Of a stretch of DNA of 64,000 nt, positions 106-48,264 are shown piece by piece; position 1 is the stretch's first letter; each line of letters starts with the position of its first letter. The translations under genes and the position numbers were made by a program. Below the pieces are notes generated by a model, which was not told the DNA's origin, ran no database searches, and worked only from the letters and a program-made list of their open reading frames with translations. This stretch comes from Symbiodinium sp. CCMP2592 (taxonomy: Eukaryota > Sar > Dinophyceae > Suessiales > Symbiodiniaceae), in assembly GCA_905221615.1 (NCBI GenBank), contig CAJNDT010006138.1, positions 265,501 to 329,500 on the forward strand, given 5' to 3'.

Positions 106-207
106 AAATCTATACTGAACTTAGAACCCTAGCAAAAATTATAATTTTAGCAGTTTCTTAGGGATTACAATAGCCAAAAACATTAAATTATTTCTATGTA
201 TCCCTAA
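106..207. mobile_element. Element family E, copy 1
   Basis: CTATACTGAACTTAGAACCC, CTTAGGGATTA and ATCCCTAAG in the same order as at 60506-60602. The last two form an internal inverted repeat. Confidence 0.55.
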
Positions 208-434
208 GTGGAGCCTCTGGGCTGTATGGGCTTTGCTAATTTGGAAGACCTCGGGCTTGATGGCATACGGATGTAAGGGCGGTAGGAAGCTCTGAGTGGG
301 ATGTTGAAAGATCAGCGGACACGGTTGAGGAGGGTGGACGGGTTCAGCTTCTAGTTCCTCTTTTCTATACACAAAAACACGCGCGAAGCCCCCGAGAGAC
401 CTTGCAAAGACAAGCTGGAGCCCATACAAAACAC

Positions 435-607: not shown

Positions 608-3600
608 CAAAGGTCAGCGTCTCGAGCGCACGCTCGGCATCCTGGACGCTGTAGTAGTTCACGTACCCGTAGCCAAGAGACCTCCAAAAGTCTCAGGTTT
701 TAGGGGGGTTGGGGTTCAAGGTTGAGGGTTTAGAGTTTAAGGGTTCAAGGGTTTCAGGGTTTAATGGTTTAAGGCTCACGGGTGCGGGTTCAGGGGTCTT
801 GGGATTTGGAGTGGGGTTTGTGGTTTAGGGTCTATGGATGTCTAAGGGTTTCTTGTTTAGGAGAGCTAAGATTAAGTTTAGCTTTGGGTAGCCAGAAACT
901 ATGCAGGAGTGTGGACATGATCGACGTAGAATTGTGCTCTGCGTACGGCTAGAAGGGAGCATGACTTAGCTGGAAGTAGCGGCATAGCTTGCAATGGCCT
1001 TATACATCTCAGTAAATATCAGGGGCCGTAAGGTTTGGGCGGTTCAGGGTGCTGATGTGCTGCCTGAAATTACAATCCTTATGAAGATGCTTCAAGAACT
1101 TGGTATATGGTGGGACTACTAGAACCCGGCAGCATCTCCATAGGGGCAGCTCAAGACGAGGAGAAGTATCTCAAGGACAGCAGATTGCCCCATGGGCGGC
1201 TTAGTGGGCCTTTGGCTTTCGGCGAGTTGCAGATGTGCAGGCTACCCTTTCTCTGGCCCGCCCAAAGCCTTCAACAGTCAGACGATTCTAAACCACGGCA
1301 ACCAATAGTAGACTATCTAGCCATTCCGACCCCTGCAACAAATTGAAGAGCCAAAAACAGCAAAACACAGTATACCATATAGTAACATAGTAGTTTGGGC
1401 CTCTTTCAATACAACAAGAAGATAGTCAAATGTAGGGCCCCAAAAAGCACACTAGCAAAACTTAGGTATCATGAAGCCCAATAAGATAGGGATATCCCCA
1501 TAAACTGCTTATGCCTTATGTGCTTTTTGGGTCCCAAATAACCCTACACCCTAGACCTTGAACCCTAAACCCTAAATAGCATAATTCAAGCCCCTTTCAT
1601 GTTGGGGGTTTCCGAAAATAGTGGTACCCGCCCTAATATGGTACCCTAAATAGTAGGATCCTCATTATGAGGACCCAAATAAGGTACCCCAATTATCGGA
1701 AACTCCCATCGAAAGGGCCCTCCAACCCTTGCAGAGGCAGCGACTTGCGGGTTGCATTGTCGCGGCAGACACGGCAGGACCTGAGCCGCTGTCCGGTTCG
1801 GACTTCAGCGCTGGGTTTGGGGGTTGTAGGGTTCAAGGTTTAGGGTTTGGGGGGTTGAAGTTTTTTTTTTGAACTCCTTTTTACGCCTGCTCGATCCTCT
1901 CAAGCCGACATAAGGCGCGAAAGTTTAGGGTTCGGGGTTGAGGGCTCAGGGTTAGTGTTTTGGGGTTCAAGGTTTAGGGCTTAAGGTCCAGGGTTTAGGG
2001 TCTAGCGATCAAGGTTTAGGGGTTAGGGTTGAAGGTTTAGGGTTTAGGGTCTAGGGCTTTGGGGTTGAAGGTTGGGGTTTAGGGTTTTGGGGTTCGCGGT
2101 TTAGGGGTGGGGGGTGGAGGTTTCGCGTTTGGGGGTTCAAGGTTATTTAGGGTTGAGGGAGTTTAAAGAGTAGATTTACGATTTCGGGTAAGGGCTGCCA
2201 GTTTCAAGTATTCATCCTCAAACTCAAGTAACATCTGCATGTGCGCGTGAGTGTAAGCGCCCTTGCTGCCTTTGCTCTCTTGTATTTTCGTGCATAAGCA
2301 TCACCAAAGTCATGCTTATTGTACTCACCACATGGTCTTCGTCAAACTCGTCGTACTTATCTTCTTCGTTTTGATGGTCGTCATCATCATCATCATCATC
2401 ATCGACATCACCACCATCATCACCATCATGCTCATCTTCATCATCTTCGCCTTCATCGTCCTTATACCAACATCATGTGAACGAAGTCTCTTTTCAGTTG
2501 CTGACTCAGCCTTCAGGACCCCTCGAAATTTGGGTTCAAGGTGGCTGTCTTGCGCACAAAGTCGGGCAATGCGGCAAGCCTTTAGCGACACTGAGCACCG
2601 CACGCGACGTTGCCAGCTGAACTGAATGCTTCGTACAGTGTGGCCTGTCGAGAACGGCCAAGGATTTAGGCGGTTCAGCGGGGTTTAGGGATGTAGGGAC
2701 CCAGAGACTCCAATATCCCTTAATTAAGGAATATACCTTAAATTCTAGTAGGATCCCTAGGAGGATTTATGGAATATTCCTTAATTAAGGGATATTGGAG
2801 TCTCTTGGGATGGGGGGCCTGTTGATCGGGTGTTAGTGATTCTGACTTCAAGACTGATGTCCTTTCAGGGCTTATGACTGCGGCTTTAGCGCATAGCTTC
2901 GGGCTCGTCGTTTAGGTTTTTCGGGTTGAGGGTTATAACACAACTTAAACCCCAAAACCCTGAAGCCCTAAGCCCTAAAACCCTAAAACCCTAAAACCCA
3001 AATTAAACCCTAAAACCCAGAAGCCCTAAGCCCTAAACTCTAAAACCCTAAACCCTAATTAAGCCCTAAAACCCAGAAGCCCTAAGCCCTAAACCCTAAA
3101 ACCCTAAACCCTAATTAAACCCTAAAACCCAGAAGCCCTAAGCCCTAAACTCTAAAACCGTAAACCCTAATTAAACCCTAAAACCCAGAAGCCCTAAGCC
3201 CTAAAACCCTAAAACCCTAAAGCCCTAATTAAACCCTAAAACCCAGAAGCCCTAAGCCCTAAACTCTAAAACCCTAAACCCTAGTTATACCCTAAAACCC
3301 TGAAGCCCCAAACCGGACTCTGCAGACGGCAGGCCAGAGACCTCAAGGGTTCGCAGTTCAAGCTTCCAAGAGACTCCACTATCCCTTAATTAAGGAACAT
3401 TCCTTAAATCTCATTAGGGATCCTAGTATAATTTAAGGAATATTCCTTAAACCATACTAGGGATCCTACTATAATTTAAGGTATATTCCTTCATTTTAGG
3501 GATATTGGAGTCTCTGGGTTGTCTGAGGTTTAGAGCTTCCGTGGGTTTAGGGTATAGGACTCTAGGGCTTCGGGGAGTAGTGCTTAGGGTGTATGGTGTA

Positions 3601-6600
3601 GAGTGTAAAAGCTCTCTTTACCAGTCTTATTACAACGCGCCAGGGCCTTGTTCGCGCGCGTGCCTTTGTGTGCATGTTGCAACTTCATTGGCCCTGCCAG
3701 TGAATTCGCGGTGTTGGGCCACTGAAGAATCTCAGAAAAAGCGCTTTATTTTTTCCCCTTCAGGCAAAGAGCCCGTCAGCGTCGTGCAGCACGTCATGCA
3801 TGCTCTGGTGATCGAATGCTCTAGGAACACGAACGTTATCATGGTTTGGCCATGGATGCTCTGGTGATCGGATGTGCAGGAAATGCTGCATACAGCAGTA
3901 CTTCTGCACCCTGTAGAAGCAAAAATGCCTGAATCCACTGCGTCTGCCAGCAAGTTTGCAAGGCTGAACCCATCGCAAGTTGCGCGCGAACAGGGCTCTG
4001 GAGGGTATAACAAGGATCTGAATCTCGAAGCCCTTAAAATCGAGGCTGCATTAGTCAGGGGCCTACATAATCACACCCACTTACCATTCAGAAGTTGACT
4101 GTCACGGGACTGGTCTTGTGTAGAGAGTTGTTGGGATTTTCGAGACTCTAGAGCCCTGAAGCTCAACACCCCTCAATCACTAACGCTACTGTAGCTACAT
4201 GTTGGTTCTTCTAGACGCCTGGCTGGGTGTTCAAAAGCGCCCCCAAAAGTCTTTGTAGTTAAGGTTGTATATTAGACCAACACGGGAAACTATAGCACAA
4301 ATCGGTACCTAGTATACAAATGAGCCCATATAACAACCCTCATAGACCCCTTTTGCACAAATGCCCCAAATTCTCAAACCCTAAACCCCAAACCCAACTG
4401 CAGGCCGCATCGGACGACGCTTTTCATGCCGCGCTCAAGCCAACAGCTGGTCCTCCGACCCTGCCGTCGCCATCTTCACGGCCACTTTGCCTCCCAGGGC
4501 TGAAGTATCTTGAAGGTTGCCTTGGGTTTAGGGTTTAGGGTATAGGGATTGAGGGTTTAGGGTGTGGGGTTTGCAGGTTTAATTTCGGAGAGTTTAGGGT
4601 TTGAGGGTTTAGGGTTTGCAGGGATTAATTTCGCAGAGTTTAGGGTTTAAGGTTTGGGGTTTGCAGGGTTTAATTTCGCAGAGTTTAGGGTTTAAGGTTT
4701 AGGGTTTTAGGGCTTAGGGTTTGCAGGGTTTAAGTAGGGCTGAACTATGGGGTCCCGGCTCGGTTACCATTCAAACTACTCTGTTTAGACAGAGCTGCGA
4801 AGCGTACGATCTTGCGATGATCCTGTGCCCGAAACTCTAAACTTCTGCACCAGCACCCGTCCTCGGGCTGTGGCACAGGTATTCTGATTCTAGGCCTAGA
4901 GAGACCCTAGACTCGAAATCTTTTTGAAACCTAAGTACCAGAATCGTAGAGCTGAAACCCTAAACTCAAAGCCGGGTTGAACGGTTGAACGCTACTAGAT
5001 CCTAAAATCCCAAGAAGAAACTCTGAACTCGAATTTGGGTTGAAGGCAAACGCGCCGGGTCTGGTTAAGCGGTTTAGGGATTTGGGGTTTCTGGTTTTGA
5101 GCCACGGGCAGAGGAGCCGGACGTTCTGACTTAAGGTTTCTCTTTGCTTGGCAAGTTGCCGGTGGTGTGTCCGGAAAGCGATTGGTTGAAAGCTTTCACC
5201 TCAGGCGCAGGGCCTAAACCTTAAATCCGCTAGCCCCAGGACCCCTAACCCATAGAACCGTCCGAACGAAAACCTCAACCCTTCATCCTAAAGCCATCCG
5301 AAGGCCGCCGAAGGTCGATATCTTCCAAGCCAAACACCTGGTCGATGTGCACTTTCCTCGGCTGGTTGTTTTATTTACCGTTTCGGGTTTGGGTTTAGGG
5401 TTCGGGGTTTGGGGATCCGTTTCGGGTTTAGGGTTATTGTCCAGGCTGTAGGTTTTGGCTCAATGTATACTAGAGGGTAGTTAGTGTCGGTTAGTGTTCA
5501 GGTTTTCGGTTTAGTCAAGTCTTCCTAATTGCACCGAACATAAGTGCTGTGAGCCTACGGCAAGTGTAAGATTGAGTAAGCCCAATGCAGTGGAAGTCCA
5601 TGCATTGCTGAAGTTGCATGGCCGTCTGCACATGCTGCCGAGTTTCAACTGGCCTTGATCCACCATCGACGCAACCTCAGGGTGTGGGAATTATAGGGCC
5701 CTCAGAAATAACTTCATTATAAGAGGATTCATATGGGATATCCTTAAGTTTTGCTTATGTGCTTTCGCGGGGTCCCATTTTAAATGTCTGCGGCGTTTTG
5801 GGTCTCCACTGTGGTGAACTGCCCCTTTTTGGCCGCCTCTGGATGGACTACGTAGGAATGTTTCAACATGGCTGTATTCCGGTATTTCTGTGTAACGCCA
5901 CAATATCAGCTGCCTACAATTCCAAGACCGTCTGACGGACTACGGCATGAGTTACCGTTCTGACTCCTGCATGATTGAGATGATAAGTTTGACGTGCATC
6001 TTCATGGGCCCTCTGTATCCAAAACAACTCAAACGATGCTGCTTGTGCCCTAACCCTACCACCCTCAAACCGTTGATGCCAGGTGGCAGCATCAATCTTC
6101 GTGTGTTCGGAACAGCTCCCGACGCAGGTGGGCGCATACTGATGCACGTCTGGGCGACGCAGCCTCGTCGAAAGCGAAGCTTTTCCTCCCTGCAGGAGCC
6201 TCAACTGAGCATCATCAAATCCTCGCCCTAACATGAATTGAATCATAAACCCACCGTAGCTTCAATTCAGGCTAGTCTGCTTCTTGCGGGTTCGAGCACT
6301 TGGCATCAACAACATGCCCCTCTGAGCGTGGGACGTAACGAAGCTCCCGTGCTCCTTGATGATCCCATATGCATGGTCTCCCGTACCATCCATGCCGACA
6401 CAATCGTAGACCACATCAACGGACTTCGGCAAGAGGACATCATAGTAGTTCTGCTTGTGGTAGTCCTCAGAAAGCTGGGCTGGAAACCCAAAGCATCCAG
6501 CCCGACACCCCTGCAGACAGCATATGATCTAACATTATTATCTTAAGTTGTATCACATTTGCTATATATTAGATCCACGCCACAAGGCACTTGTAGCACA

Positions 6601-9600
6601 TTCATTTAAGTGCCAAGGATGCTGACTGGACAAGGGCTCAACTGATGAATCTATAAATGAAATCCTAAATCTTTGTCATCTTCGTTTTTACGCTGAGAGA
6701 GTTCAAGGTGTCGGAGGTAGAGCTGGAGAGAACACTATGCGCTTCCAAACTACGCGGCCCTCATTGGTCCACCATAAAGATCCTGAGCCCCAAACAGGGG
6801 AGAGGGTGCCAGGCTCTCCCTTTATCCTGGAGCATGGACACCGAATTCAAATCGCTACGTAACCCCAAGCTTTTAGCAGCATATGGCGGCCTTACGAATT
6901 TGAAAGGGGTTCTCCGGGTGAAAGATAATATAGTTATAATACGGAACTATGGACCCTTAAGGAACCCCTAGGACATTCTGTCGTCCGAGAATCGATGACC
7001 TGATCTGCGCCCAGCTGTCGGACAAAGCTGGAATGAGTGTCCGAGCAAGTGGTGATGACCCAGGCAGCACCCATGGCCTCACGAATCGCTCGACAGTCGA
7101 CATGTCCTTGCCTTTTCCGTGAGGGGGCGGGGGGCGGGCGGGAGGGGAGTTCCTCACTGAAGCCCCATGAAGTCCCGACTAATTTTCTTGGAAGTCGATC
7201 TTTAAAATGAATCTATGCATACCCACTCCTAAGCACTACGTCCCCAAGGACCGGCAATAATCGCTGCGGGCTTGTATGTCTTGAACCGTTCCAGACATTA
7301 CGGGACCCTGTTTCTGATATAGCTTCGAAATTCCAAGGCTGTTCTATGAGGATCCCTGAATAAGGCATGCCTGCCTTTCTGAACTGCCTGTTTATAGCTG
7401 TGTCGGGCGTTTGCAATCCTGGCCTTTGCTAGCTGAATGCCCAAATGGCCAGTGCCACCGCCTCAGATCGATAAGGGAGGACATGGGAGTTTCAGAAGAC
7501 AAGGGAACCAACGTACAGACCAAAGCGTAGGACTTTGTTCTAACGACCCTTAAAAGCGAATCCAAAATGATGGAAAGTGCGTACAAACCGAACGAGTGAT
7601 ACTAAATTTAGCAACAAGGGCAACAGCATCATTATCATCAGCTTCTTCTCCATTCTCACGATAGTGAGCCGTTTCAGGTTGTTCCGGAACTCTCAGCGTT
7701 ACTGAAAGGATCAAGCGACTCATTAAGAAAAGGCTTGAAGTACAGTATTGGATGATATAGGCAAGTCAAGCACAGCCATCCTTCAAGCAGTCTCGTAGAG
7801 CCACCTTATGCCCCAATGTCAAAATTGCCAGCAAGTTTCTTCCACCGAGAACCAGCACGGTGGTGTTCGTGCTCCTCGCTCAATTTTTCTTCTGCTAGGT
7901 TCCCCAGTAGCCCTTTTGTAATTAGCCCTAAACCCCAGACCCTTTTTCCTACTATTCGGATTTAACCAAGAGCTGAAGCTAAGTCTGGCTTCTTCTTAAG
8001 CGGCAGCTCGGACATACGACTTGGGCCGATTCGGGTGAGAAGTTTGTGGGTGAGGATTTGGGCTGCAGGGCGGAGCTTAGGATTTTGGTCTGTGGGGTCT
8101 TGCACCCTTCATGCCACAACCTAACCGAGAACTTGCCAAAGCAGGGTGCCGTCCTGCGCAGGCCGCTATTTGCAGTGTGCGGTTACAACAGTTGGGGTCG
8201 AGAGCTTGCAGAAGGCTGCTTCAAAAACAGGTGTGCAAACAAGGGCATGGCTACTCACAACTTGTGGAAACAAGCTTGCGCAAGCTTGCAAGCCGGCGGC
8301 CGAAAAGCATGAACTGTTTCTGCCGCCTTCTCTCTCATGTGCTTGTCCTGCAGCTTCAGATGCCATGCGCAAGAACGTTGCGACAGACTCAACCTACACA
8401 TGCACGGCATAATTCATTGCTCATGTACACACTTGCCGAATGGTGAATAATAATGATGATATTGACGTTGATTTCATTGCACGATTTCGTACCATAGGAT
8501 GCCGATGTGCACGATGCGTAAACATGCTGACAGGAGAAACATCTAAAAACTTTTCGGCTTCTGCCGATTCCGAACACTTGACTTCGTGTGTGGCACTGAT
8601 CACACTATCGCCCATGAACCCTGGTTGTCAGGATCGCGTTCGGGCTGGGTGTCAGCTGCGATCATCCTCTGAAGCACAGCAACTTGCTGGTGAGCTTCCG
8701 GGCGGTGTAGCATGTTCAGCACTCTCGCGGCCCTGTCCACCTGTCGGTCCCTCTGTTCCTCTTGCACATTGGCTCTATGGCGTTCCTCTTGCAACGTGTG
8801 ACTGTGCCGCTGGGAATCACGATAAAGAAGGAGCACGCCACAAAAAAACACCACAACCACAACGCAAAGAATCCAATTTGTATGAGCCTGGTGGTGAAGT
8901 CCCTCCACTTGCATGGTCGTTTGGCTGGCCAGCTCCTGTTCCCCGCGACGAGCTTGAACATCGAGCTGGTGCTCTTCGTGAAGCGATTGTAGCTTCTGAG
9001 TGTGTTCGGCATGGATGCCTCTGTAGATGCAGTACGCAGCACCCACAAGCAATGGGCTGGCGCAGATGAGCTCTGCCCCAAGCTGTTGCTGAGACGCTGC
9101 CGTCTTAGCCTCAAACTCTGCCTTCCTTGTTTCTTCATGTGCCTGCTCCACTCCTGGCTCGGCAAGACTGAACGATGTCCACGCACCACCGACAAACGCC
9201 GTAATCGCACACACCAGGATTACGCCAATGTCGAGAACCATAGCGTGAGATCTGAGGGTGGTTGAGCCCCGGCAAACTCGCAGAACAAAAGGCTGCAGGA
9301 CGCGATGATATGATTTCATCTGCAACTAGCGGGCCGTGGGCATTGTGAGTGCTGCCGGACGGTGTCGGTGACAATGCTTCCGATGCAGCTCAAGCCCCAA
9401 GGCAGTCCTAAACGCCTTAGCCCTACAGTTCTCAACCTGTCAAAGTCTCCATCCTACCAAACTCCAAACTCCAAACGTCCCATCCCTCAAACCGTACACA
9501 CCCTTGAAATCCCCATACAACCTCTTAACCCTGCCCTTAAGCCCTAAACCATAAAGCTCGGCTTTAAAGCCCCAAGCCGTACCCCTCCCGAAGCTCCGAA

Positions 9601-12600
9601 ACTTCGCCGCGCCCGCCGCCCACCGAAGCGACTCGAGTCCCGTCAGAGCCACCATAGGCATGGCCCCGGCCTCCAGCATACCTGGGGCTTGGGTGTAGCC
9701 GCAACACTGAATATGAATAAATATTGGGGCCTTAATAACAACAAGTTCAATAAGTGTTGGGCAGTGTTGGGGGTAATATTTTACTATAGCAAGAACAAGG
9801 AATTCCGACCTCCACTTAGGCGCTGAGATAAGAGACCAAGATGAAACAGGCAATGCATTCATGCCCAATAACCGAAACTACAGAGAGGGACTTCAAACAA
9901 GTCTTTTCGTGGGGAGCCATCTTCAAAATGCCAACGCACTCAACAGAAACCCTTTAAAAAAGCTTACCACATTGATATAGGGTCTTTTTTACTTATAAGT
10001 ACTATTCCGACGTGATGTTGCTATGAGGGCCCCTACGTTACTATGGGCGCCCTGCACGGTCCAGGGCGTAACATCTCAACATCTAAACCCTAAAACTCTA
10101 AAAACCCTCAACCCTAATCCCCTTTTCCCTAAACGCTAGACCCCCAACCCTGGAGGGCTTAAGGTTCGAGGTCACAGCTTCCTGGCCGGGCGGCTTAGCG
10201 ACTTCGGCTTCAAACCCAAGACCGACTCCTCGGCTTTTCAATAGGGTTTGTGAGTTTTGGCTTAAGGTGTGAGGTTTTGGGGTTTAGGGGTTTTGGGTTT
10301 AGGGCTTCAAGGTTTGGGGTGGGTTTTGGGGTTTGGGGGTTTAGGGCTTTGCGGGTTTTGGGGTTTAGGGCTTTAGGGGTTTGGGGATTAGGGTTTAGAG
10401 GTTAGGGTTTGAGGTTTTGGGGTTTAGGGGTTTTGGGTTTAGGGTTTAAGGTTTGGGGTGGGTTTTGGGGTTTGGGGGTTTAGGGCTTTGCGGGTTTTGG
10501 GGTTTAGGGCTTTAGGGGTTTGTGGGTTTTGGGTTTAGGGTTTAAGGTTTGGGGTTTAGGGTTCAGGGTTGAAGGTTTGGGGTTTAGGGGCTTAAGGTTT
10601 TGGGGTTTAGGGTTCAGTCATTAGATTTGGAAACTAGGCAGTTGTAGGGTTCATATAGTTTTCGGGGGTTTAGTTATCCTATAGGGAACCCAAAAGGTGT
10701 AGGGTTCATTAATATAGCTTTAGGGGGATTAGTTCTCTTGCATCAGGAACCAACAAACAAAAAACTAAAAACAAGCTGTACCAGTGAAGAACCCAGACTC
10801 AGAGACGACTGCATACTGAGCGTAGGTGCCGGCAGTGGTGAGGGATTCCATCAAAGATGTGGCCTGGGTGACCCCACACTCCGAGCCTTAATTTCAAGAC
10901 AAAACAAGCCTTACCTCATTTTTGTCCGCATATTTTTTCCTTCAGAGGGTTAAAGACGCACCTTTAACCCCAAAACTCCCTCATTCCCTCGACCCGAAAC
11001 ACCTACACCCTGAACCCCGGTAGTCTGCTGCCCCTAAACCCTATGCCCGCACCGCCAGAGCCCAACACCCCTACGTCTCCGTAAACACGCAACTGAAAAC
11101 TTAAAAATCCACAGGCTAGGATGCCCAGTAACCTAGGAATAAAATGGGCTCCCTTTTTGGTATTGGGCACCTTTATAAGGAACCTGGACTACAAAAAGGG
11201 AATAAGGGTACTACTTGGCATCCTAGAACACGCGAAAGAAAACTCAAAGATCCACAGGGTTTAGGGTTTAGGGTTTAGGGCATCCTAGCAGGTTGCCTCG
11301 CCCCAGACTTCGTCGCCCGGCTTGAGACGCTCGCAGCCAGCGCCCAAGGTCTGAACGACGCCCGCCACGTCGTAGCCCAGCCTGGAGGAGATCTGGTCCC
11401 AAAACCCTAAACCCTGAACCGGTTTGAGGCATAAGGTCCCTCGAACCATACTATAGCGACCTAGGAGCCCGACTAAGGTACCTACAACTTCAAATAAACT
11501 CCGCACAGCACCTGGAATTTCATGCCACACGGCAAAAAGCTCGAAATGCCCGAAGCCCCGACATACCTGTAGCCCGAAGCAGCACATTACTAGAAAGGCA
11601 TAGTGAGTGCAGTACGAAGAGCAAGACTATGCCATAATTATGCTACTCCCTCAGAATGAGCAAACGAATACAATCTGCCGCAACAGTGTTCAAAGCACTG
11701 TAAAGCACTGCAATCATGTTGGAGCTACAGCGAAGCAGCCCCTGTAAACCAAATTCCAATATTCCCAAACCCCGCCATAAACCCTAAACCCCAAAGGAGC
11801 CAAAGAACTTGTGGGGATAGCTCCAGCTCCAGCCAGCCAAGCCGACGATCTTGTGATCAACCTTGAGATTCAGGTGTAAGGTTCAGGCATTCGGGCTTAG
11901 GGCTGGAGTTTGGGATTTTGAAGCTAGTAGTTCAGGGGTCAGCGCTTATAGTCTCGGGTCTAGGGCTGAGTGTAGCCTGTTTTCGAGGGTTACAATCCAG
12001 TCTTATGAGGTCGTTTCGTGTGCCCATTGTATACTCTCTCGGCCTCTATAAACTCTCGCTGTCTTGCTTGCGTTGGACAGTCCGATCGTGTCTAAGATGT
12101 CAGGTCTCGTAGGGGTTTTAGTTCAAACCCTACACCCTAAACCCTATATATATATACACACACACACATTTTTTGTTGAGCCTTTCTTTCAGGGTTCACG
12201 CCCTCCGGCTTTTTGCGGGGCCTTGAGGATCAGGCGCTTCAAGGTTTTTCCCAGTCAAGGAAGTTTGGGCATTGGTGACTTTGGGAGAGTTTCTTCTAGG
12301 GCTCCAAAAAAGCACATACGCAAAGATTAGGATAGGGATATCCCATATAAACCCCCTTATAATGAAGCCCAATAAGGTAGGGATATCCCCATAACATGCT
12401 TATGCTTATGTGCTTTATGGGTCCCTAATCTTCGAGCCCGAAACCCCACACTGTTGAAGCGGCGGTGTTCTAGGGGCGGGGTACGGTTTAGGGTTTAGGG
12501 TTCCAGGTTTCGGACGTGACGACACCGTAAAAATCACCATATCGCCTGAACAAGCTATATTTCTCGAATCCCGCTGTATGGCTGGTGAAATGACTTCTTG

Positions 12601-15237
12601 ATCAGCTCTACATTGCCTTGGTACGGCGTTCTCGCGAAATCTAACTCTATTGGCCGAAGCTCTAATTACTAGGAAAGCCCAGCTAGAACCAGAACAGGTG
12701 CGAACCCATAGACTCCAACACCCCCATAGGCCCCTGAGTTTAAGCGATTTACCTTACATCTTGCAAGGGTTCTTCATATGACTCGAAGTATCTACTTGAT
12801 GCATCCTCTGCAAAGATTCTTCGAATGATATTCATGGTTTCCTCCTCAATACAAAGGGGTTCTGTGCCGAGATGCAGGGTTGATGTTTGAAGCGAAGACT
12901 TTCACCAGCACTTCCCCGCGGCCCGGCGTTGGGATGTCCTCCGAATCTTGCTAGGTAGACTGTAAACCTCAAGCCCAAACCCCCATAGCAGGAAACCTGA
13001 ACATCGATAAGCCTAAATTAAATCCTATACGCCGTCTCTAAACCTTACACCAGGCTCAGAGTGTAGGGCCTTGGGCTTTGGGGCTTAGGGAGTTCAAAAC
13101 AATAAAGTTCGTTTCAAGGATCCGGTTAACAACTTCAGAACTCGAGACTTGAGGCCACAACCCGACTGCAGGCAAGTCGCCACGTCGATCACTTCCTTAG
13201 CTCATGCCCAGCTGCTTGCATCAAATCTACAGACGCAGCCTTTTCCGAGACTGGTGGAAGACTTCTAGGAGCTACGCAGCGAAAGGTTTCAAAGGTTGGG
13301 GAATAGGATTTTGGGGCGTTTTGGGCCTCTTAGTCAAACAAGATGCCCAAGTCCATCCTAAACCCTAAGCTCTAAACCCTAAACCCCTAAACCCTGAACC
13401 CCTAAGCCCTAAAACCCTAAACCCCTACACCCCCGAAGGAATATACACCCTAAGATGCCCAAGTTCATCCAAGCTTCGACCTTGTCCAAGTGGAACTGGA
13501 GATCCCAGCTGCGGTTGCTGACTACTGCAGCCCGCATCTTTTCGGCGGATCCCATCCTCCCGGCATTCGGGGGTTTCCGAAAACGCGGGACCCGAATATA
13601 GAACCCTAAATAGTAGGATCCTTATTAGAAGGATCCCAAAAACAAGGTACCCCTTATCTTCGGAAATTCCCACCTTGGTCGAGTCTAGAGCTGCAACTTA
13701 TTGATTTAGGGATTACAAGGGGAGGGGCGCAGCGTTGAGGGGTTTTAGGCTGTTGGGCTTGTTTCAGAACTAGATGCTTTCAACAACGGCATTGCCAATG
13801 CGAAGATGCTGTCCTCGGCCATAGCAGGAATGTCAGGCAGAGCCACTGAGACAGCGCCATCAGAAAACCTGCTTCTAGAACTGGGCCGCTGGTGTTCCGC
13901 AAACTCGAGCCGCTGAGCAGGTTGAGCGGTTAGTTCTGTCATCGCCTAAGGAAGCTTCATAAAGGAACTCAACAAAAGACTGCCAAATAATGATAATCAT
14001 AATGGTAAGGAGCCTTGCTATATACTCTGCCACAAGACGAACCAAAGTCTCAAAGAAGCCCCCTGCCATGCTGGGAATACTCACAGCAGTATATGGTCAT
14101 AGCTGGCAAGACTCCCCACGTTGCTCAACAGCTCTGTCTGTTCCGCTGCTGAGCACATTTCCCTAAACCCGAGAACCCTAAAACCTTCCAAGCCCGAATT
14201 GTGAGCTTTCTGCCTTCTCAACCATATGGCTTTAGATGTTAAGTTTCCGTGCGAAAAAACAATAAGTTAACCTTTCACTAACGTAGGCTCCTGGGTACCC
14301 AGACGGGGTAATAGGACGCATACTCAGCTACACAGTTTACCCAGAGAGCCCACCCCACCCAAATTGTCGAGGGCTGCTTATCATGGTTGAAGTAACATTC
14401 TCCAGTGATGGGGGCGTGCCGGTACAGATGTCCCGCCCCCTTTGTCGTCGGTCTCCGATGGAGAGTTTTAGAGTCTGGAAATCCGGGGCATGCCTCGCCA
14501 ACATCTGGGTGAAGATCGCCCACCTGAGCTTCATACGAACTGGACTAAGGTTTTAATATGACTTGCAGCGATTTCAACACATAGCTTTAACAGGCCTTGA
14601 TCACAAGGTTGCCTTCACACGCCAACCAGGCAGTAGACTTTCTATAAATGGTGAAAACGTACGCACCTCGGAGCTCGCTCCGCCCAAGGTCTGGGACCCT
14701 CCCCCCTTTGTATGGCTTGAAAGGATTACGGCTATCCTTTAACTGGGCACCCTAAAGCAAAATCATGTAAACCTGAATTCCCAAACCCCTGAACCCTCCC
14801 ACGAGCCCGAAATCCACCAAACAATGTCTCCCTTCACCAGGGCTCCAAGAGATGCTTTCGCGAGCTCTGGGAATTCGGGTGTGTCTTAGGCTCGGATTGG
14901 GAGTCTTTGGGGCGTTTAGGGTTTAGGCTCTTTGGGGTGTTTAGGTAGCTTGTCTAAGTTGTGCTAGAGGCTACAGACAGGACTGCCATCTTGATGAAAA
15001 GGCATGCCACAGAGTTTACCTCCAAGGAGCCTAAAGCACGAACCCTCTCAACCCTGAACCCCAAACATCTCCAAGGCCCTCAACCCTTAAACCCCTAAAA
15101 CCCTAAACCCTCAAACCCCCAAACCCCAAAAAGCCTAAACACCCTAAGCTTCGAACTTCTCCCTCGTCCGAGGGCAGAGCGTAGAGTGACGCAAACTGCA
15201 AGCCGTTTGAACTGGCCGGTGGTGGCGGTGCCGTCAT
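608..15237 (-). CDS. PABP: Poly(A)-binding protein, N-terminus and RRM1 (spliced, 3' part beyond window)
   Basis: Cytoplasmic poly(A)-binding proteins bind mRNA tails through RRM domains. Five minus-strand exons join in frame: 15237-15181 (ATG, Pro-rich leader ending FASLY), 14523-14494 (VGDLHPDVGE, only 30 nt), 2644-2604 (ATLYEAFSSAGNV), 1780-1745 (SCRVCRDNATR) and 681-608 (SLGYGYVNYYSVQDAERAL). The product, about 79 aa, reads through RRM1 in family order: VGDLHPDV is the RNP2 strand and SLGYGYVNY the RNP1 strand. Donors are TAC|GC, GAG|GC, CGC|GT, CAA|GT and TTG|GC; all acceptors are AG|G. RRM2-4 and the C-terminal domain must lie left of position 1. Intron 2 is 11.8 kb and contains an entire MDR gene on the same strand. 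Identity is strong; the last donor is the least certain boundary. Confidence 0.85.
1436..1536. mobile_element. MITE family H, copy 1
   Basis: GGGCCCCAAAAAGCACAC at left, TATGTGCTTTTTGGGTCCC at right, GATAGGGATATCCCCATA inside. Confidence 0.7.
1604..1708. mobile_element. MITE family B, copy 1
   Basis: Terminal inverted repeat GGTTTCCGAAAAT / ATTATCGGAAACTCCC, interior GGTACCCTAAATAGTAGGAT then TCATTATGAGGACCC. About 105 bp, no ORF. Confidence 0.72.
2380..2460. repeat. (CAT)n trinucleotide region
   Basis: CATCATCATCATCATCATCG and related ATC runs. Open on both strands but low complexity. Confidence 0.8.
2701..2808. mobile_element. MITE family A, copy 1
   Basis: Near-palindromic 108-bp element. 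Termini CCAGAGACTCCAATATCCCT and its complement at the right end, TTAATTAAGG inner blocks, GGATCC centre. No ORF, so non-autonomous. It lies in PABP intron 2. Confidence 0.75.
2943..3305. repeat. Minisatellite, ~57-bp unit of telomere-like sequence
   Basis: About six tandem units of AATTAAACCCTAAAACCCAG, AAGCCCTAAGCCC, AAACTCTAAAACCC. Higher-order repeat built from CCCTAAA. Confidence 0.75.
3366..3517. mobile_element. MITE family A, copy 2 (internally duplicated)
   Basis: Same GAGACTCC...GGAGTCTC termini as copy 1, but 152 bp long because the centre (TAGGGATCCTA plus TTTAAGGAATATTCC block) occurs twice. Confidence 0.72.
3929..13555 (-). CDS. Medium-chain dehydrogenase/reductase (quinone-oxidoreductase-like), 13+ exons
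   Basis: NAD(P)H-dependent MDR-superfamily oxidoreductase; the substrate cannot be told. Exons 5' to 3': 13555-13481 (ATG, MGSAEKMRAAVV), 12938-12876 (DIPTPGRGEVLVKVFASNIN), 11861-11809 (VDHKIVGLAGW), 11381-11297 (LGYDVAGVV...GDEVWGE), 10863-10801 (AGTYAQYAVVS), 10228-10195 (GLKPKSL), 9681-9606 (EAGAMPMVALTGLESL), 7874-7840 (NTTVLVLGG), 7461-7424 (GGTGHLGIQLAK), 7077-6979 (AMGAAWVITTC, QLGADQVIDS), 6474-6323 (VDVVYDCVG, GSFVTSHA), 6163-6124 (LRRPDVHQYA), 3995-3929 (DGFSLANLLADAVDS). Phases agree throughout and give 293 aa in family order: GroES-like half, GGSGGTG nucleotide loop, Rossmann strands. The last ~40 residues (final strand and helix) were not found with confidence. Donors are 3 GT, 5 GC and 5 GA. 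The gene lies wholly inside PABP intron 2. Confidence 0.85.
4525..4735. repeat. Minisatellite, ~58-bp unit
   Basis: Three to four units containing GGGTTTGCAGGGTTTAATTT and CGCAGAGTTTAGGG. Confidence 0.68.
5695..5777. mobile_element. MITE family H-like, decayed
   Basis: GGGCCCTCAGAAATAAC left, TATGTGCTTTCGCGGGGTCCC right, ATGGGATATCC inside. Confidence 0.42.
8600..9241 (-). CDS. Intronless three-TM, coiled-coil-like protein (213 aa)
   Basis: Not recognised. An uninterrupted frame starts at ATG 9241 and stops at 8600. The upstream extension to 9325 is open, but this ATG puts a hydrophobic segment at the N-terminus. Predicted membrane segments are residues ~4-22 (DIGVILVCAITAFVGGAW), ~54-74 (around ICASPLLVGAAYCIY) and ~123-140 (NWILCVVVVVFFCGVLLLY). 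Between them are Gln/Glu/His/Arg-rich stretches (e.g. AHEETRKAEFEAK, HTLQEERHRANVQEEQRD) likely to be helical or coiled coil. It lies inside MDR intron 7 (9605-7875), same strand, so it is a gene within a gene within a gene. An overlapping plus-strand frame (8440-9069) lacks this organised pattern. Function unknown; alternatively it is a retrocopy or a fortuitous ORF. Confidence 0.5.
   Translation of the reverse strand: MVLDIGVILVCAITAFVGGAWTSFSLAEPGVEQAHEETRKAEFEAKTAASQQQLGAELICASPLLVGAAYCIYRGIHAEHTQKLQSLHEEHQLDVQARRGEQELASQTTMQVEGLHHQAHTNWILCVVVVVFFCGVLLLYRDSQRHSHTLQEERHRANVQEEQRDRQVDRAARVLNMLHRPEAHQQVAVLQRMIAADTQPERDPDNQGSWAIV
10250..10620. repeat. G-rich telomere-like array with ~143-bp duplication
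   Basis: GAGGTTTTGGGGTTTAGGGG ... AGGGCTTTGCGGGTTTTGGG appears twice (from about 10268 and about 10411). It occupies an MDR intron. Confidence 0.68.
11116..11226. mobile_element. MITE family D, copy 1
   Basis: CTAGGATGCCCAGTAACCTA at left, TACTTGGCATCCTAG at right, asymmetric interior CCTTTTTGGTATTGGGCACC. It lies in an MDR intron. Confidence 0.72.
12298..12427. mobile_element. MITE family H, copy 2
   Basis: AGGGCTCCAAAAAAGCACAT ... TATGTGCTTTATGGGTCCCT, with the AATAAGGTAGGGATATCCCC block duplicated in part. It lies in MDR intron 2. Confidence 0.7.
13569..13673. mobile_element. MITE family B, copy 2
   Basis: GGGGTTTCCGAAAA left end, TTCGGAAATTCCC right end, shared AACCCTAAATAGTAGGATCC core. 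It lies immediately 5' of the MDR start codon (13555). Confidence 0.72.
13745..14069 (-). CDS. Possible exon(s): hydrophobic segment followed by overlapping frame
   Basis: A minus-strand frame from ATG 14069 encodes a strongly hydrophobic piece (ARLLTIMIIIIWQSFVEFLY). It overlaps, in another frame, an ATG at 13942 that opens 65 codons to a TAA at 13745 (start MTELTAQPAQRLEF). Both pieces look coding by residue composition, but the join is unclear: TAG lies just before the second ATG in its own frame. They sit between PABP exon 2 and the MDR start codon, so they may be a separate nested gene, exons of another gene, or chance. No family recognised. Confidence 0.22.
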
Positions 15238-16205: not shown

Positions 16206-16634
16206 TTTCCGTTCGAGTTGAGAACCTTCGAGCAAACAGACAACGTGAACTGCTTCCATGCTAAAGCGCTGATTGCAAACACCCTTCCAGCAAGTCTCCC
16301 CATACGCCAAAACGGATGTTACCACTTCTTGGCCGACTTCTGAACCCCTCCTAAGAGTTAAACTTTATGGTCCCAATGGAAACCCAGACCCCAAAAAGTT
16401 AAAGTCCCAAGAGCCAACCAGAAGAACGCCAAGACTTTATGGGCTAAGATCTGATATAACAAACTCCTGTTGAAAGGGTTTATGGTTTAGGCTCAAGTGT
16501 AAAATCCTTTAATTAATGGGCGTAGGGCATTCTGCCAGAGGGAAGCTGCGAAAGGAACAGATCACTTGGGCAAAGAGGGAGCCTAACTGTAAGAAGCTCC
16601 AGCTTCGTGCTGCATGCCGTGTAGATGTCTCTTA

Positions 16635-16743
16635 CCCAGAGAGTCCAATACCCCTTATTTAAGGAATATACTTCAAATTAAAATAAGAGCCCTAATCTGA
16701 TTTAAGGTATATTCCTTAATTAAGGGGTTTTGGAGTCTCTGGG
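16635..16743. mobile_element. MITE family A, copy 3
   Basis: Termini CCCAGAGAGTCCAATACCCC and GGGGTTTTGGAGTCTCTGGG, with TTAAGG-type inner arms; diverged copy of 109 bp. Confidence 0.72.
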
Positions 16744-17286: not shown

Positions 17287-17394
17287 ATGTGGCGGTTTCC
17301 GAAAATAGGGGACCCTAATATAGTACCCTAAATAGTAGGATCCCTCTTATAAGGACCCGCAAATAAGGTTCCCCTAATTTTCGGAAACTCCCAT
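17287..17394. mobile_element. MITE family B, copy 3
   Basis: GGCGGTTTCCGAAAATAGGG left, TTTTCGGAAACTCCCAT right, and the ACCCTAAATAGTAGGATCC core. Confidence 0.72.
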
Positions 17395-22247: not shown

Positions 22248-25200
22248 CTCAATGTCGGTGGCGGACCAGGTTGCCTGGGTGTCCAGCGAGAGGTTCGTGA
22301 GCACCTGCCGGAGCACAGAGCTTGTGAATGCAGCTTTGGTGGCTAGAAAGTTTGCTCAGGCCTCTTATGGGGCACAGTACATACAAAATATTTCACAGCC
22401 CAACAAACCTAAACTAAACAGTGCAGTATCTCCAAGAACTGTGAAGAATGGGTTCAAGTTCTTGGGTTCCGCAGCGCTCAGGATACAGAGTGTAAGATGG
22501 ACATGTGCGAGTGGTTTGGAGGGCGGGGAGGGGTGTGGGGGCGGGAGGGGTGAGAGGATGAGCTGGTTTTGGAAGTCCGGTCGAGAGTTTGGGATTTCGA
22601 AGTTTAGGCAGCTTTGGACGTTTAGGGTTTCACAGTTCCCAATCCGTGCTGGGTTTCTACACCCAGCTGCAGACTGCACAAGTTGCACAATGGGTGAGAG
22701 GCGCTTCATCCGTAAACCACACAACAGCCTTGGATGATCTTCTTCGAGATTCCATACATATTATTCTTAGTTTGTTCACTCGACTTTGATTTCGTAGCAT
22801 ACGGACACGCGCACACACAAACTCACTAATTGGCAGGCAAAATATGTGTTTCCAGTCTTGCACCGATTTGTGTCAGCTGCCGAGCTGTAAGCACCAGTGG
22901 ATGGCCAAGTCAATTCAGAGCGTGACCGGTTTTGGCTGCAAGACCTTGCAATAGCAGATGCTGGTTCGGCTTGATGCATTCCAGCAAGGTGTCCGTAAAG
23001 CTCTCCGGCTCGAAACCCGGCAAAGCGTGGCACCAGCGAGCATTGTTGATTTTGAGTTGTCTCCTCTGTAGCGAAAAGGAAATGTCACAAGCCTGAAACT
23101 CGGCTGCCGGGAACCACAGGCGTGGTCTCACAGAGGGGCACAGATGACATTATTGACTTGGCAGGAGGCTGCTCTTGTAAAAATCCAGCTCGCCCCCAGA
23201 CATGCATTACCTTGGCCAGCGACCACTGGGATGACCCACTGGCTTCTCTGACGGCACGCCGAGTGTTGTCCGAAGTGTTGAACTCGACGGCAATTAGAAC
23301 GCAGTTGTCCACTGTGTACCCTAGACTGTTGTCGAGCCTTTCCAAGGACATCACCCAGTCATGGTGACTGCACGTGTACTGCAGAGGAACCCCGGAGTAG
23401 AAGCAACGTCCTTCCTGCTCCAGCAGCTTCTGCATAATGTCCGCGTGCCCTATCTCGCACGGCATGCCTCTCCTTACTGCGCGTCTGCTAGCATGACCCG
23501 CGAGCCTTTTACACCTGTTTCTAAGGAGATTGGAGGACGGCCTGCCTCTGTTATGCAAGTCAGCAACCGCTTCACCGACGTCCTTTTCAAGCCCACGCAA
23601 ATCTGGCTGTAAGTTCCATGCTTTGGCGACGAACCGGAACTTCTCAAGGGACCATTGGGCCGTGCCCTGGACGCGTTCTTGCCGAACACCAGGACGCATG
23701 CTGTGGTCGCTTGAGTTGAACTCAGCAGCCACCAATACGCAGTTCTCGCGGAAGTACCCAGACGAATTGCTCAAACGCTCCAACGACATGCGCCAGTTTG
23801 AATGTGGAAACTGGAGCTGCATCGGAACTCGGGAGTATGCACACCGTCCCTGTTGATGTAGCAGCATCTGCAACAAGTCTTGTATTTCTATGCTACCCGG
23901 CAGGCCCTTTATTCGCCCCCTTCGGTTGGCATTGCCTGCCATAACAGCAGCAGTTCCACGTAAAGTGCGCTGGTAGTCTAGCTGGGTTTGACTTTCACAT
24001 CTTGTGCACAGACTGCATCGACCCCGAAACTCAGACGGTGGCAGGTAACGCCCGCAACGACGGCATGGCATTTCACCCAAGTCGTTCGGCCGCCTCCACG
24101 GCCTAGGGTTGGACGTTCTGCGCGGCCGTCGCTGAGCTTCAGCCACTAGGTCAGACAGCTGTCCGAGGTACCGCTGGGTAGGTGCCGCTCTTGCCATAGC
24201 CAGTTCATCTGGCCACTCGCGTTGAAGAAGCAAATGAGAAGACGCACCGCAAGCAACGAACTGCTTTGCTTGTGTACGTAGTGCCGGCATCCATATCCGC
24301 AATCCATGCCGAAGACTGTGGATCATGCTCTTTCGGACTTTCAAGCTTCGACTCTCAATACTCCTGATGCCCGAAATGCAGCAGCCGGCTTCGAGCATAC
24401 CAGGCCTTAAACCAAACGCATGAAAGCCTTCATGCAAACATCAAAGCACCTTACTTCCCAGATCCTAAAGCCCAAAACACAGAATTTGCAAAAGCAGAGC
24501 TTCAGCTCCGGGCCCTCGTGTCCTATAGCTCCAGACGCAGCATCTGCCGACGTGTTATTCTCGACGCAGGATAAGCTTTTAAGCCCTAAGCAGTTTAGCC
24601 CAACTTCTAAACACTGGCAGAAGCGAAACTCATGGCCTTCACGGCCACCAGCTGCAGCAACGGGTCATCCGTCGGCGCATCGCCGAGGAGCTGACGAACA
24701 GCAGCAGGGCTTCAAGATTTTCGGGCTTTGGGGTTTTCGTAGTTGTTTATCGACGTTTATGGGCTTGATGCTTTTGAGGTTTCGAGTATTGGGCTTCGAA
24801 ACTTCCTAAGTTCGGACTTGGGCCACCTGAACTCTTCACATCTCGTTTTCCCTGAACCAAATCCTGAACCGTCAATCCAGAATCCTATGCCCAGCCTGAA
24901 CCCCAAACCCTGAAAACCAACTCATAGCATACTTTACTATGCTCGACTCTACTTTACTATACTATACTTTACTATACTCTACTTAACTATTTCCTGGCCT
25001 TCCCCAGCTTCTCCACTGCCGGTGTCGAGCCGGTCAGACGTGGCGTGCATTCCTCGAGCCGCCGGGGTAAAAGGCAAAACACAAGCGACAAAACGACACG
25101 GTCGACGGTCGCACCCTTCCTAGGCCGTCAACGTCTGCACACCAGTAGAGTGTCAGGCGGATCTCGGGCAAGCACCGGGTCGGCAGCTAGGTTGACGAGG

Positions 25201-28200: not shown

Positions 28201-31200
28201 GGCGGTTTAGGGTTAAGGGTTTAACTTACCAGAACACTATTATTGGTTGTTGGGGTCTTAACAATAGCCTGAACGCTAAAGCCATGTACGGAGAGTCGAT
28301 AAACAGTGCAAGTGACGGTCGGAACACTTGCTCCACACAGCAAAACGAAAGCAGCCAGCGGATTCAGGTGAAACTTGGTAACAACGCTACGATAATTCCG
28401 CGTACGAATCCTTTCACCAGTGCCTTAAGGTCATTGGCTGGGAGGCGGGCATTTCTTGAAGCATGTGCCCAAGTAAAGCTCCTCATCCTGGCTTTCGAAG
28501 CCGCGGTGGCACTTCGAGATTGTTAGTATTCCCATGCAAGGGTTCGTGCTCCGGTCTCCTTTGAAGGTGAGCAGAACTCAGAGATCCCTACAAAACTAAG
28601 AGATCCCTACAAGACATTCATAACCTAAAACACTAAGTAATGCAAAGAGACACATGCACCCCCAAGAGCTGTATTGCATAGAGTTGAGGATTTCGGGTGT
28701 AAGTGTCTGGGATTTGCTAGGCTTCTTCAAGGAAGGAAAGTATACAGAACCACTTGCAGAATGTCAAAAAAACCCTCAAAGAATCCGAGAAGCCCCGTAT
28801 TCCCGGCAGGCGCGGCCTTCATGCAGGATCCCGGGGAATGCGGACCTGAGCTGAGCTTCGGAGGGATCTGCACCATGAGGGATTCAAATTTATGGCTTTA
28901 GGGCTTTAGGTTAGGGTTTAGGGTTTAGGGTTTAGGGTTTAGGGGGTGGGGAAGGGGGGTCAAGGTGCAGCTTTCTCTTTTTGGAAGCTCTAGGCCACAC
29001 CAGCAAACTCAAACTTCCCCAGGAGCCCGAACTGCCTGCCCAAACTCGTCTTTCTCCTCACTGGCCCAAAACCCAAGGAAATGAAAGTTGAAACTTTCAG
29101 AATCGACCACCTTCTAAGAACCCCAAAAGTTGAGTTTACAGCCAGTAAGTCTCTCTCAGCGCGGCACATCGCTTGGCCCCTTCCTTTGCTCCGGCGACAT
29201 CGAAACCCTGGCACGGCCTCGGCACTCGTTCAGTTTAGGTCCAGGCTTTGGAGTTACGGCCCCGGACCAGACAGTCCCCAGAGACTCCAATATCCCTAAA
29301 TGAAGGAATATACCTTAAATCATGTTAGGGATCCTACTATAGTTTAGGTATATTCCTTTATTGAGGGATGTTGGAGTCTCTGGGGTCAGATGATAACTGC
29401 GTTTGAGCTTGTGATGACGACTTCACTTCGTAATACTGTCAGAGCTACAGGATTTGCCCAGGCTTGACAAGCGCGGAGGGCAAGTACGGCGGATAAGAAT
29501 GCTGCAGTATCCTCGCCCTGGACCCGACACCTAAACCCTGAAACCTACACCCTAACACAAAACCCTGAACCCCAAGTCCTGTGCCTTCAACCCTAAACTG
29601 TAAAACCCCTAAACTCGAAAGAAGCCCTGGACCTGCCACGCTTGTAAGATCTTGACAGTTAAGGTTTAGGGTTTAGGGTTGTTTTAGAGAGGTGCGCCTT
29701 TTCTGTGCGTGCGACCCTGCCTGTACAGGCTTGCACTCAGACATTATCATTGATCGACCCTCAGGCAGAACTAGAAATTGCAACTGGCACATCTTCAGTA
29801 GCAGCTGGTTCCTCATTCGAGGTGGCAGCCACGACAGAAACAGATGTTACTAGAGGCATGTTAACATTGGCTCTAGCACTATTCTCCTCAGCAGCTTCAG
29901 CCGGGTTTGGGGTTTAGGGGGTAATTAAGATGTATACAACTTTATGTAACCCTTATGAAATCCTCGTAAACCCTGCATGGACACTCAAACTCAGACCTTA
30001 CCACCCCAAACCTTGAGGAACCTAGAATCCGTCTACAACCCTGTAAGGCCTTAATAAACACCTGTGAACCCTGAAACCCCCGTCGACGCTGAGGCGCTGG
30101 CATCAGTGACGGGGAGCTGAGGATGGCATTGATGGCATCCGCGCTGAGGTGGCACTTGTTCCTCGGCTTTTGGTTTTTTGCTTCTTTGTAGTTGGTGTAA
30201 GTTTTTTTATGTTTTGAAAGGGTGCTTGCACGGGTTCTACAAGGATTCGTCGGCTTTTCGACAAGACTATAGGCTTATGCGGTTTCGAATTTAGGTCTGT
30301 AAGGTTCAGGGGTTCAAAGTAAAATTAAAGGGATCTGGTACCAGGGAAAAAATGGTACCCTAAGGTACCCTTGTTCCGACGACTCAATTTTCGTCAAGAC
30401 ATCCGAAAAACACTAAGCGCTAAAGCCTACACCCCAACTCTACCATTAAGTTTTAGCCAGGAGACACCCGCCCTAAACCCTAATCCCTAAAACCTACACC
30501 GTTACCAAACAAGCATGAGGGGTGTCCAGTCCAAACTCCTCAGGATGGTGGCGTCCATGTCCTGGTATCTGACTCCACAGTCTCAGAAGCTAAGCCAGCA
30601 AGACTCCCTTAAAATCCCTACAAACGGTGTAGGGCTTAGGGCTTAGGGTTATAAAAGAAAGACTACAGCATGAAAAAGAAGCGCCAAAGAACTACCTATG
30701 CGCCACAGAGTAACTTTGTCAAAAAGGGGCCCTGTCTGCGACCAAAGCAATACCTCAAAGAACAGAAAACACAAGTTCATTCAGAACTGCTTCCTACAGC
30801 AACTTGGACCAACAAGGAAGTTCCAAGTTGCCCTGAGAAAAGGCCCCCCCCCCCCTCTTTTCCCATGATCAATGTTAGACTGGAGCCTCAAAACGAGCCA
30901 ATGCACCATATTACTGGCAAGCCAGTTCTTGAAGGCTTTAACTACCTTAACGGGGGAAAGCAGTAGACATAACTAGAGCTACTTGATTTAAAGCCTACTT
31001 CCAAGTGTTTTGATCCTTTACTGAGGCAAGACACTCGCCGCTGGAGTCCAGGGGTTCGCAGATGTGAGCAGCGCATCGGACCTCTTACTGGTTTTAGGGT
31101 TGGCTGAGAATCTACCTGGACCCCAGCAAACACCCTTTTCTAAAACCCTAAACCCTAAACCGTCCCTTTTCTAAGTGTTGGGCCAGTATTCTATCTATTT

Positions 31201-37200: not shown

Positions 37201-38735
37201 TACAGAAGCCCTATCGGACACTGCAAAACCCGCCAAGCACGGTGTCAACACCCATGAAGGACAACCTGAAGAGGCCCTAAACCAGGAGCTCAAGTCTAAG
37301 CCTTATACCAGTTGCTGGCAGACCCCAAGATCAAATTCAAGCCCCTACACAGCAAAGTGCGGCCAAAGCTCGACGATCCAAACTCCTCACATAAACCCCT
37401 ATAGTGCCCCAGAAGCCCCAAATCCACAAGCTCCTGAAGCCCATAACCACCGGAACCCAAAAAACTCAAAAGAGCCCGGAAAGACCAGGATCCCGACATG
37501 GTCTGACCTGAGCGTGTAGGGCTAAGGGCCCAGGGACTCCAATATCCCTCAATTCCAGGAATATTCCTTAAATCACATTAGGGATCCGACTATCATGTAT
37601 GGTATATTCCTTAATTAAGGGACATTGGAGTCTCTGGGGGCTCAGGGTTTGGGGCTACATTGCGGCTTCCTGTGTCGGTTCCTTGACGGGTCTTTGGGCT
37701 CAGGGCTTTGGGGGTTCTGGTTTAAAGGGCTTGGGCCTTTTAAGGGGTAGGCTTGGTTTAATTTTAGTGCATACCTGGTCGAAAGTTTCGGGCTTGGGGT
37801 TTCGAGATTTGCTAGGGCTCAGAACACTCAGCCGGTTTAGGGTTTTGGGTTTAGGGTTTAGGGTTTAGCTACAGTGCTTCCATGCTGTCCTTGAACCCGG
37901 AAGCTTCATGTGAACTTGTCTCGGCAGCGTAGCCGGTTGTGATTTCAGCTCGGCGGGTGGAGGATCAAAAAAATACAACGGATCAAAAACAAATTTGGGC
38001 CCAACCAATCAAAAAAAATAGGAAGGATCAAGAAAAACTTAGGGTTTGGGGATCTGCTGCAAACAATAGCACGGTTCCTGGGAATAGCGGATCAACAAAA
38101 TTTAGACAGGATCAAACACAGATTAAAAGATTTCTGTCAGTGCGATTTCAATAGTCCCGGGTCGGAACTGTGCGAAACCATGGCGTCAAAGCCAGAAAAG
38201 CGCGGTACAGCGTAGAGTCGTAGAGGGTTCGAACGGTTGGTGTAACCAGCTCTAAACAGCCTTAGTTGCCAGGATGAGATTTCAATATTTCAGAGTCGTT
38301 TGCGAAATCATGGTGTCAAAGCCAGAAAGGCGTTGTACAGCGTAGAGGGTTCGGACGTTTGGTGTAACCACGGTTGCTGGCCATGGCTGCGTGCGCAGAA
38401 ACAGCATTATAGTTGAAAGGAATGAGCCTGCCGCTTGTGGCCGAGAAATCAAGAAGCCGGAAGCTACTAAGCCAGGAAATCAACGAATTGCCTCGTAAGT
38501 CATAAATGTGTTGTTGATACTTTTTAATGTTGTTTGATCCGTTTTAAATTTTGTCGATCCTTTTTAAATTTTTTTGACCCCTCTCACAGCTCGGCAGTCA
38601 GACGGATCTGCCTCGCAATGATTGCGCTCGTCAGGATGAGAGCAGGGAGCTGAACTGGCAGCAACATGCCGCATTTTCTCGCATGCCTCTTGACATGCCT
38701 TCATCGCCACCGTTGTGCCCATCGTCTTCGAACAC

Positions 38736-47700: not shown

Positions 47701-48264
47701 CATCTTAGGGTTGGGCGAGGGTGCCGACAAGTTTGAGGATCGGGCTTAGGGTTTAGGGTGGTGTCGGGTTTAAAGGCTTTCGGGCACATATTGCTCATAA
47801 TGCGCACTCTAAATCCAAACTCCACGTACTCCCGCCCCTCCCCCCCTCTTCCCATAACACGCACTCTAAATCCAGACTCCATGTATCCCGGCCCCTCCCT
47901 CCCTCCCCACTAAAAAACACTCAAAAACAAACACTTAGATGCTGAGTTCATAAGCCCCAAAGAGTGTACACTTTCAGTTCTACAATGGGTAATATTATCC
48001 CCAAGAAGTGTAAAGTGTATCACTCAGCTACTAAGGCCTAACATAATATCATAAATAGTAGGATCCTTATTATAAGGACCCCAAAATAAGGTACTCCTAA
48101 TGTTCGGAAACTCATATCCACTCAGCTACAAAGAACAGCGCACGCGCGCGAAAGAAAGTCCTCCGCTCCCTCCGAGAGCTCGGAAAGCAGATGACCGGCT
48201 TCCTGCCAAGGCATTGGAGTGCACAGCACTCGGACTCCTCTAAGGAAGGATCCTAGAGAGTATG

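Follow-up and report, generated by a model that had tools for sequence, protein, structure and literature searches.

A same-strand MDR gene within an intron of a PABP gene in a dinoflagellate-like nuclear genome

The stretch of DNA analyzed here (64,000 nucleotides, hereafter the window) is best explained as part of a dinoflagellate-like nuclear genome in which genes are nested in an ordinary way, a reading to which we assign a probability of about 0.78. Intron 2 of a poly(A)-binding protein (PABP) gene would hold a medium-chain dehydrogenase/reductase (MDR) gene that runs in the same direction, and intron 7 of the MDR gene would possibly hold a small gene in its turn. The MDR gene (13555-4435) lies wholly inside the host intron (14493-2645), and every modelled exon of both host and guest is on the minus strand. 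At the sequence level the same-strand nesting of PABP and MDR is well supported, and we regard the arrangement as real in the DNA itself.

The host gene is represented by five minus-strand exons. Exon 1 (15237-15181) starts with an ATG and reads MTAPPPPASSNGLQFASLY, exon 2 (14523-14494) reads VGDLHPDVGE, and both end in a GC donor; exon 3 (2644-2604) reads ATLYEAFSSAGNV plus two bases, exon 4 (1780-1745) reads SCRVCRDNATR(K), and exon 5 (681-608) reads SLGYGYVNYYSVQDAERALETLTF. The sequence-only reading had placed exons 2 and 3 at these same positions and had claimed that they join in frame, and this phase-0 junction was recovered; exon 1, from the ATG at 15237, and exons 4 and 5 continue the same frame. 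Together the five exons give 79 amino acids with no stop or frameshift. The match to PABP1 (PDB 1cvj), which we take to be the human protein, is ungapped over 68 of the 79 residues and spans all four junctions, with E-values of 7e-35 for the chain and 2.2e-23 for the RRM1 stretch. The piece also matches RRM_1 (2.8e-16) and positions 1-63 of the profile TIGR01628 (3.2e-29), which identifies it as an RRM1 of the PABP type; with only 79 amino acids to score, it reaches 102.5 bits, well short of the 497.1 set as cut-off for the whole protein. The remainder of the gene, with RRM2 to RRM4 and the C-terminal PABC domain, should lie outside the window.

A single position in the window stands out as the best match for each of exons 2 to 5, with scores of 48, 38, 41, and 80 against runners-up of 23, 28, 28, and 24, respectively. 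Exon 1 is ambiguous when taken alone (its four comparable residues, ASLY, occur at three positions in the window), and its placement, which we regard as probable, rests on an initial ATG, a fitting phase, and a location immediately upstream. At 30-41 bases each, exons 2 to 4 are short. Introns 1, 3, and 4 measure 657, 823, and 1,063 bases and intron 2 measures 11,849 (2645-14493), of which about 2.7 kb (938 + 1,790 bases) would be left without the MDR gene. An intron of this length is not new, as one of 26,372 bases is reported in Crypthecodinium cohnii (PMC11453091).

The possibility that so fragmented a match arises by chance was assessed by spliced alignment of the PABP1 RRM1 letters to the window, with GT, GC, or GA donors and AG acceptors. 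At an intron penalty of 18, the minus strand scored 157, while none of 40 shuffled queries exceeded 61 and the plus strand gave 45; exon 1 was pulled to a wrong place (36108-36088). At an intron penalty of 8, it scored 200, against maxima of 151 for 60 Markov sequences and 142 for 40 shuffled queries, 122 for the plus strand, and 131 for the reversed sequence; this path includes one spurious piece, at 53962-53954. Masking exon 3 lowered the score from 157 to 136 at the higher penalty and from 200 to 194 only at the lower one, where spurious tiny exons substitute for it, a result that counts against this exon. Because masking cost little in the full alignment, exon 3 was also scored alone: of 889 stop-free candidates of 41 bases, taken from both strands and bordered by suitable splice sites, no other reached 22.

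These data also bear on a reading without nesting, in which two partial PABP copies, one lacking its 3' part and the other its 5' part, flank an ordinary MDR gene. The window displays RRM1 alone from PABP, as such a pair of remnants might. However, the two sides meet in matching phase with no residue lost or repeated, and exons 2 to 5 have single best places, so both copies must have broken in the same intron. On the minus strand above 13555 alone, the best chain scored 126, no higher than the full-length chance mean of 133, and left the real exons 1 and 2 unused; below 4430 alone, the best chain scored 157 and consisted of exons 3 to 5 and three spurious pieces. There is therefore no second, complete RRM1 on either side of the MDR gene in these searches, and we consider the reading with two PABP copies highly improbable. 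A PABP1 RRM2 query gave 70 on the minus strand and 47 on the plus strand (maximum of 20 shuffled queries, 53); the former score probably reflects the RRM1 exons matching a related repeat. Inspection of the last 607 bases by eye revealed no RRM2 exon.

The guest is a gene of the zinc-type alcohol dehydrogenase/quinone oxidoreductase-like kind, which runs on the minus strand from an ATG at 13555 to a stop at 4435. Our provisional model comprises about 14 exons and 303 amino acids: exons 1 to 3 at 13555-13475, 12938-12876, and 11861-11803; exons 4 to 7 at 11381-11297, 10863-10801, 10228-10195, and 9681-9606; exons 8 to 10 at 7874-7843, 7461-7424, and 7077-6979; exons 11 and 12 at 6465-6334 and 5675-5632; and exons 13 and 14 at 5356-5317 and 4500-4435. 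Exons 3 and 11 lack a GT, GC, or GA donor and exon 14 lacks an in-register AG acceptor. The earlier reading was right about the gene's own ATG and its position between PABP exons 2 and 3 on the same strand, while its count of 13 exons gives way to a provisional 14. The 13 modelled introns range from 275 to 1,731 bases; the longest, intron 7 (7875-9605), owes 642 of its bases to the inner frame discussed below.

Assignment to the MDR superfamily is supported by the first 254 residues of the model, which contain a GroES-like N domain (PF08240 ADH_N, 8.6e-14) and a nucleotide-binding domain (PF00107 ADH_zinc_N, 3.4e-14), both above the Pfam cut-offs; the model is quinone oxidoreductase-like, and PDB 4ida matches it at 6.6e-34. 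Spliced alignment of the 4ida letters at a penalty of 18 scored 185, whereas 30 shuffled queries did not exceed 105 and the plus strand gave 78. Five of its ten traced intervals coincide with model exons, four overlap them, and one falls outside the model; exons 1, 3, 12, 13, and 14 are absent from the traced intervals, and the query ends before the C-terminal part. In that part the model is probably missing one or two short exons. The alignment at a penalty of 8 (366, with 318 on the plus strand and up to 327 among 30 shuffled queries) was set aside: because its path crosses many spurious tiny exons outside the gene, the penalty of 18 was relied on for MDR.

The models contain 18 donors (eight GC, five GA, three GT, and two without an acceptable site). 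Dinoflagellate acceptors favor AG|G, and here AG|G is found at 16 of the 17 internal exons. The use of GC and GA besides GT is a trait of dinoflagellate nuclear genes and is seen here, although these counts are partly circular, as the junctions were hand-picked with GT/GC/GA and AG|G in mind. In Symbiodiniaceae, GC and GA are reported to account for 25-74% of donors, and TTTAGGG is the dinoflagellate telomere repeat (PMC11453091). Degenerate, telomere-like TTTAGGG in either direction makes up 16.4% of the window (one shuffled copy has 0.6%) and is absent from all modelled exons. Splice borders and repeats thus suggest a dinoflagellate.

In the MDR model two donors and one acceptor are not acceptable, and the end of the PABP gene is not in view, as might be expected if the PABP (or MDR) copy were a decaying pseudogene, in which case the splicing conflict would be moot. 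Against this, the 79 PABP residues are intact, as noted above, and the joined MDR exons read from a start to a final stop with no stop in between, although its junctions were hand-set to keep the frame, which favors the model. We consider decay of either copy unlikely.

Several dispersed elements occur in the window. A palindromic element of about 110 bases is found in both directions at 2700-2808, 3366-3519, 16634-16743, 29275-29385, 37523-37639, and 49479-49598, with 75-91% identity among the matches listed, and looks like a small non-autonomous mobile element. A second element, of about 105 bases, lies at 1603-1709, 13569-13672, 17290-17394, 34976-35078, 39804-39887, and 48037-48113; the copy at 13569-13672 stops 13 bases before the MDR ATG and may supply the 5' region of that gene. 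The two copies of a third element, 90% identical, lie in PABP intron 4 (1467-1539) and MDR intron 2 (12358-12429), and a 99-base repeat (84% identity) is present near both ends of the window (110-208 and 60504-60602). Outside the nest, a 451-codon stop-free stretch on the minus strand (23088-24440) exceeds the 227-codon maximum of 40 simulated windows; it has no Pfam match, and its codon score ranks 29th of 151. A Pfam search of ten other long frames, from 373 stop-free stretches of at least 60 amino acids, returned no family at E ≤0.01, and the window contains no RNA family at gathering scores and no tRNA.

Repeats of this kind could have led an assembler to misplace an MDR-bearing contig in PABP intron 2. 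They stand on both sides of the MDR gene (the palindromic element at 2700-2808 and 3366-3519, the second element at 13569-13672), both flanking elements have further copies in the window, and a tandem array lies at 2945-3308. Such an artefact, however, would need two misjoins within one PABP intron with orientation preserved; the window is free of any N, and nested genes are reported to be common in Polarella glacialis (PMC7245778). We therefore find an assembly artefact quite unlikely, and true nesting of MDR in PABP is the reading we retain.

The sequence-only reading had placed a third gene inside the second. Its 213-codon intronless frame is present on the minus strand, from an ATG at 9241 to a stop at 8600 within MDR intron 7, and it has three hydrophobic peaks; as a gene it is plausible and not more. 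The frame may be a small intronless membrane-protein gene, and the odds tilt modestly toward this candidate being real. The stop-to-stop stretch, at 241 codons, exceeds the longest (227) in 40 simulated 64-kb windows, and the TTTAGGG-like repeat, frequent in the window, is absent from the frame. With training on the MDR gene, the frame has a codon score of 0.118, above all 2000 intron samples, and in a separate codon scoring it ranked sixth among the 151 stop-free stretches of at least 80 amino acids in the window. A chance open frame, which would leave a single level of nesting, nevertheless has only slightly less than even odds: the score of 0.118 is lower than that of the frame's own opposite strand (0.177), which is in turn lower than that of PABP (0.292), and no match above cut-off was found in Pfam or NCBIfam (best E 0.015 and 0.044). 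Single-protein pattern scans of viral and prokaryote contigs, whose reach is limited to close relatives, hit 6 and 105 stretches, with 0 relatives by tblastn. An origin of the inner frame as a recycled mRNA was also considered and is unsupported: a search of the window for a spliced-leader relic found none, whether as many as 5 substitutions were allowed across 21 bases or as many as 2 across the final 15.

Under the nested reading, two or three transcription units most likely share this DNA, and each gene would be expressed as its own mRNA. In the PABP pre-mRNA, exon 2 (ending at 14494) would be spliced directly to exon 3 (starting at 2644) over 11.8 kb. The earlier claim that the host transcript must ignore at least 25 internal splice sites fits the 14-exon model, which gives 13 donors and 13 acceptors, two donors and one acceptor of these lacking an acceptable site; splicing of PABP would thus skip as many as 26 modelled sites of the MDR gene. 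The 5' end of the MDR mRNA could be set either by a promoter of its own or by an acceptor at the AG|G junction that precedes the ATG at 13555 by one base. A single pre-mRNA may carry all these sites, and spliced leaders may be used. Since its introns are retained, the MDR gene would have arrived as DNA and not as a reverse-transcribed mRNA, through insertion or transposition of a segment or through recruitment of PABP exons across it.

A variant of this mechanism gives one pre-mRNA two fates. The MDR message (and perhaps that of the inner frame) would lack a promoter of its own and would be derived, by spliced-leader trans-splicing at the AG|G beside the ATG at 13555, from the PABP pre-mRNA or from the intron removed from it. 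We hold this to be improbable. If it were true, each primary transcript would give either PABP or MDR, and the nest would serve as a built-in switch linking mRNA-binding capacity with an oxidoreductase. The locus would be a good test case for how the spliceosome pairs a donor and an acceptor 11.8 kb apart past up to 26 modelled internal sites.

Gene-in-gene nesting has already been documented in dinoflagellates and in animals, and the locus makes a good further example of a known arrangement. The surprise implied by the sequence-only reading was in this respect overstated. We found no printed account of the PABP/MDR locus in the literature, which was searched without PABP by name. The window supplies a clearly mapped case of a gene with many exons inside a same-strand intron of another gene, in a genome that looks to have relaxed donor sites and possibly spliced-leader capping.

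A close likeness is with the dinoflagellate Polarella glacialis, in which genes are likewise found inside introns of multi-exon genes. In two isolates, 4898 (8.4%) and 3359 (6.5%) of the genes are reported as nested, from an annotation that admitted GA donors and genes inside introns longer than 10,000 bases, and full-length transcripts confirm the nested structure according to that paper (PMC7245778); strand, exon number of the nested genes, and double nesting are not given in the parts of the paper compared here. A study of sponges cites 5-10% nested genes as typical of other genomes and almost none in several (PMC10282587). In a mammal, nested pairs resemble the present one in that host and guest can lie in tandem, with host intron retention and exonization upstream of the guest; they differ in that such pairs are few, as 53 of 158 protein-coding nested genes are reported as tandem and 31 were kept as probably individual genes. 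Double nesting and guests parallel to their host, in a genome where spliced leaders are common, are found together in Hormiphora californensis, which has 2357 nested genes, 484 of them doubly nested and many host-parallel (PMC8527503), but which is a ctenophore and thus an animal.
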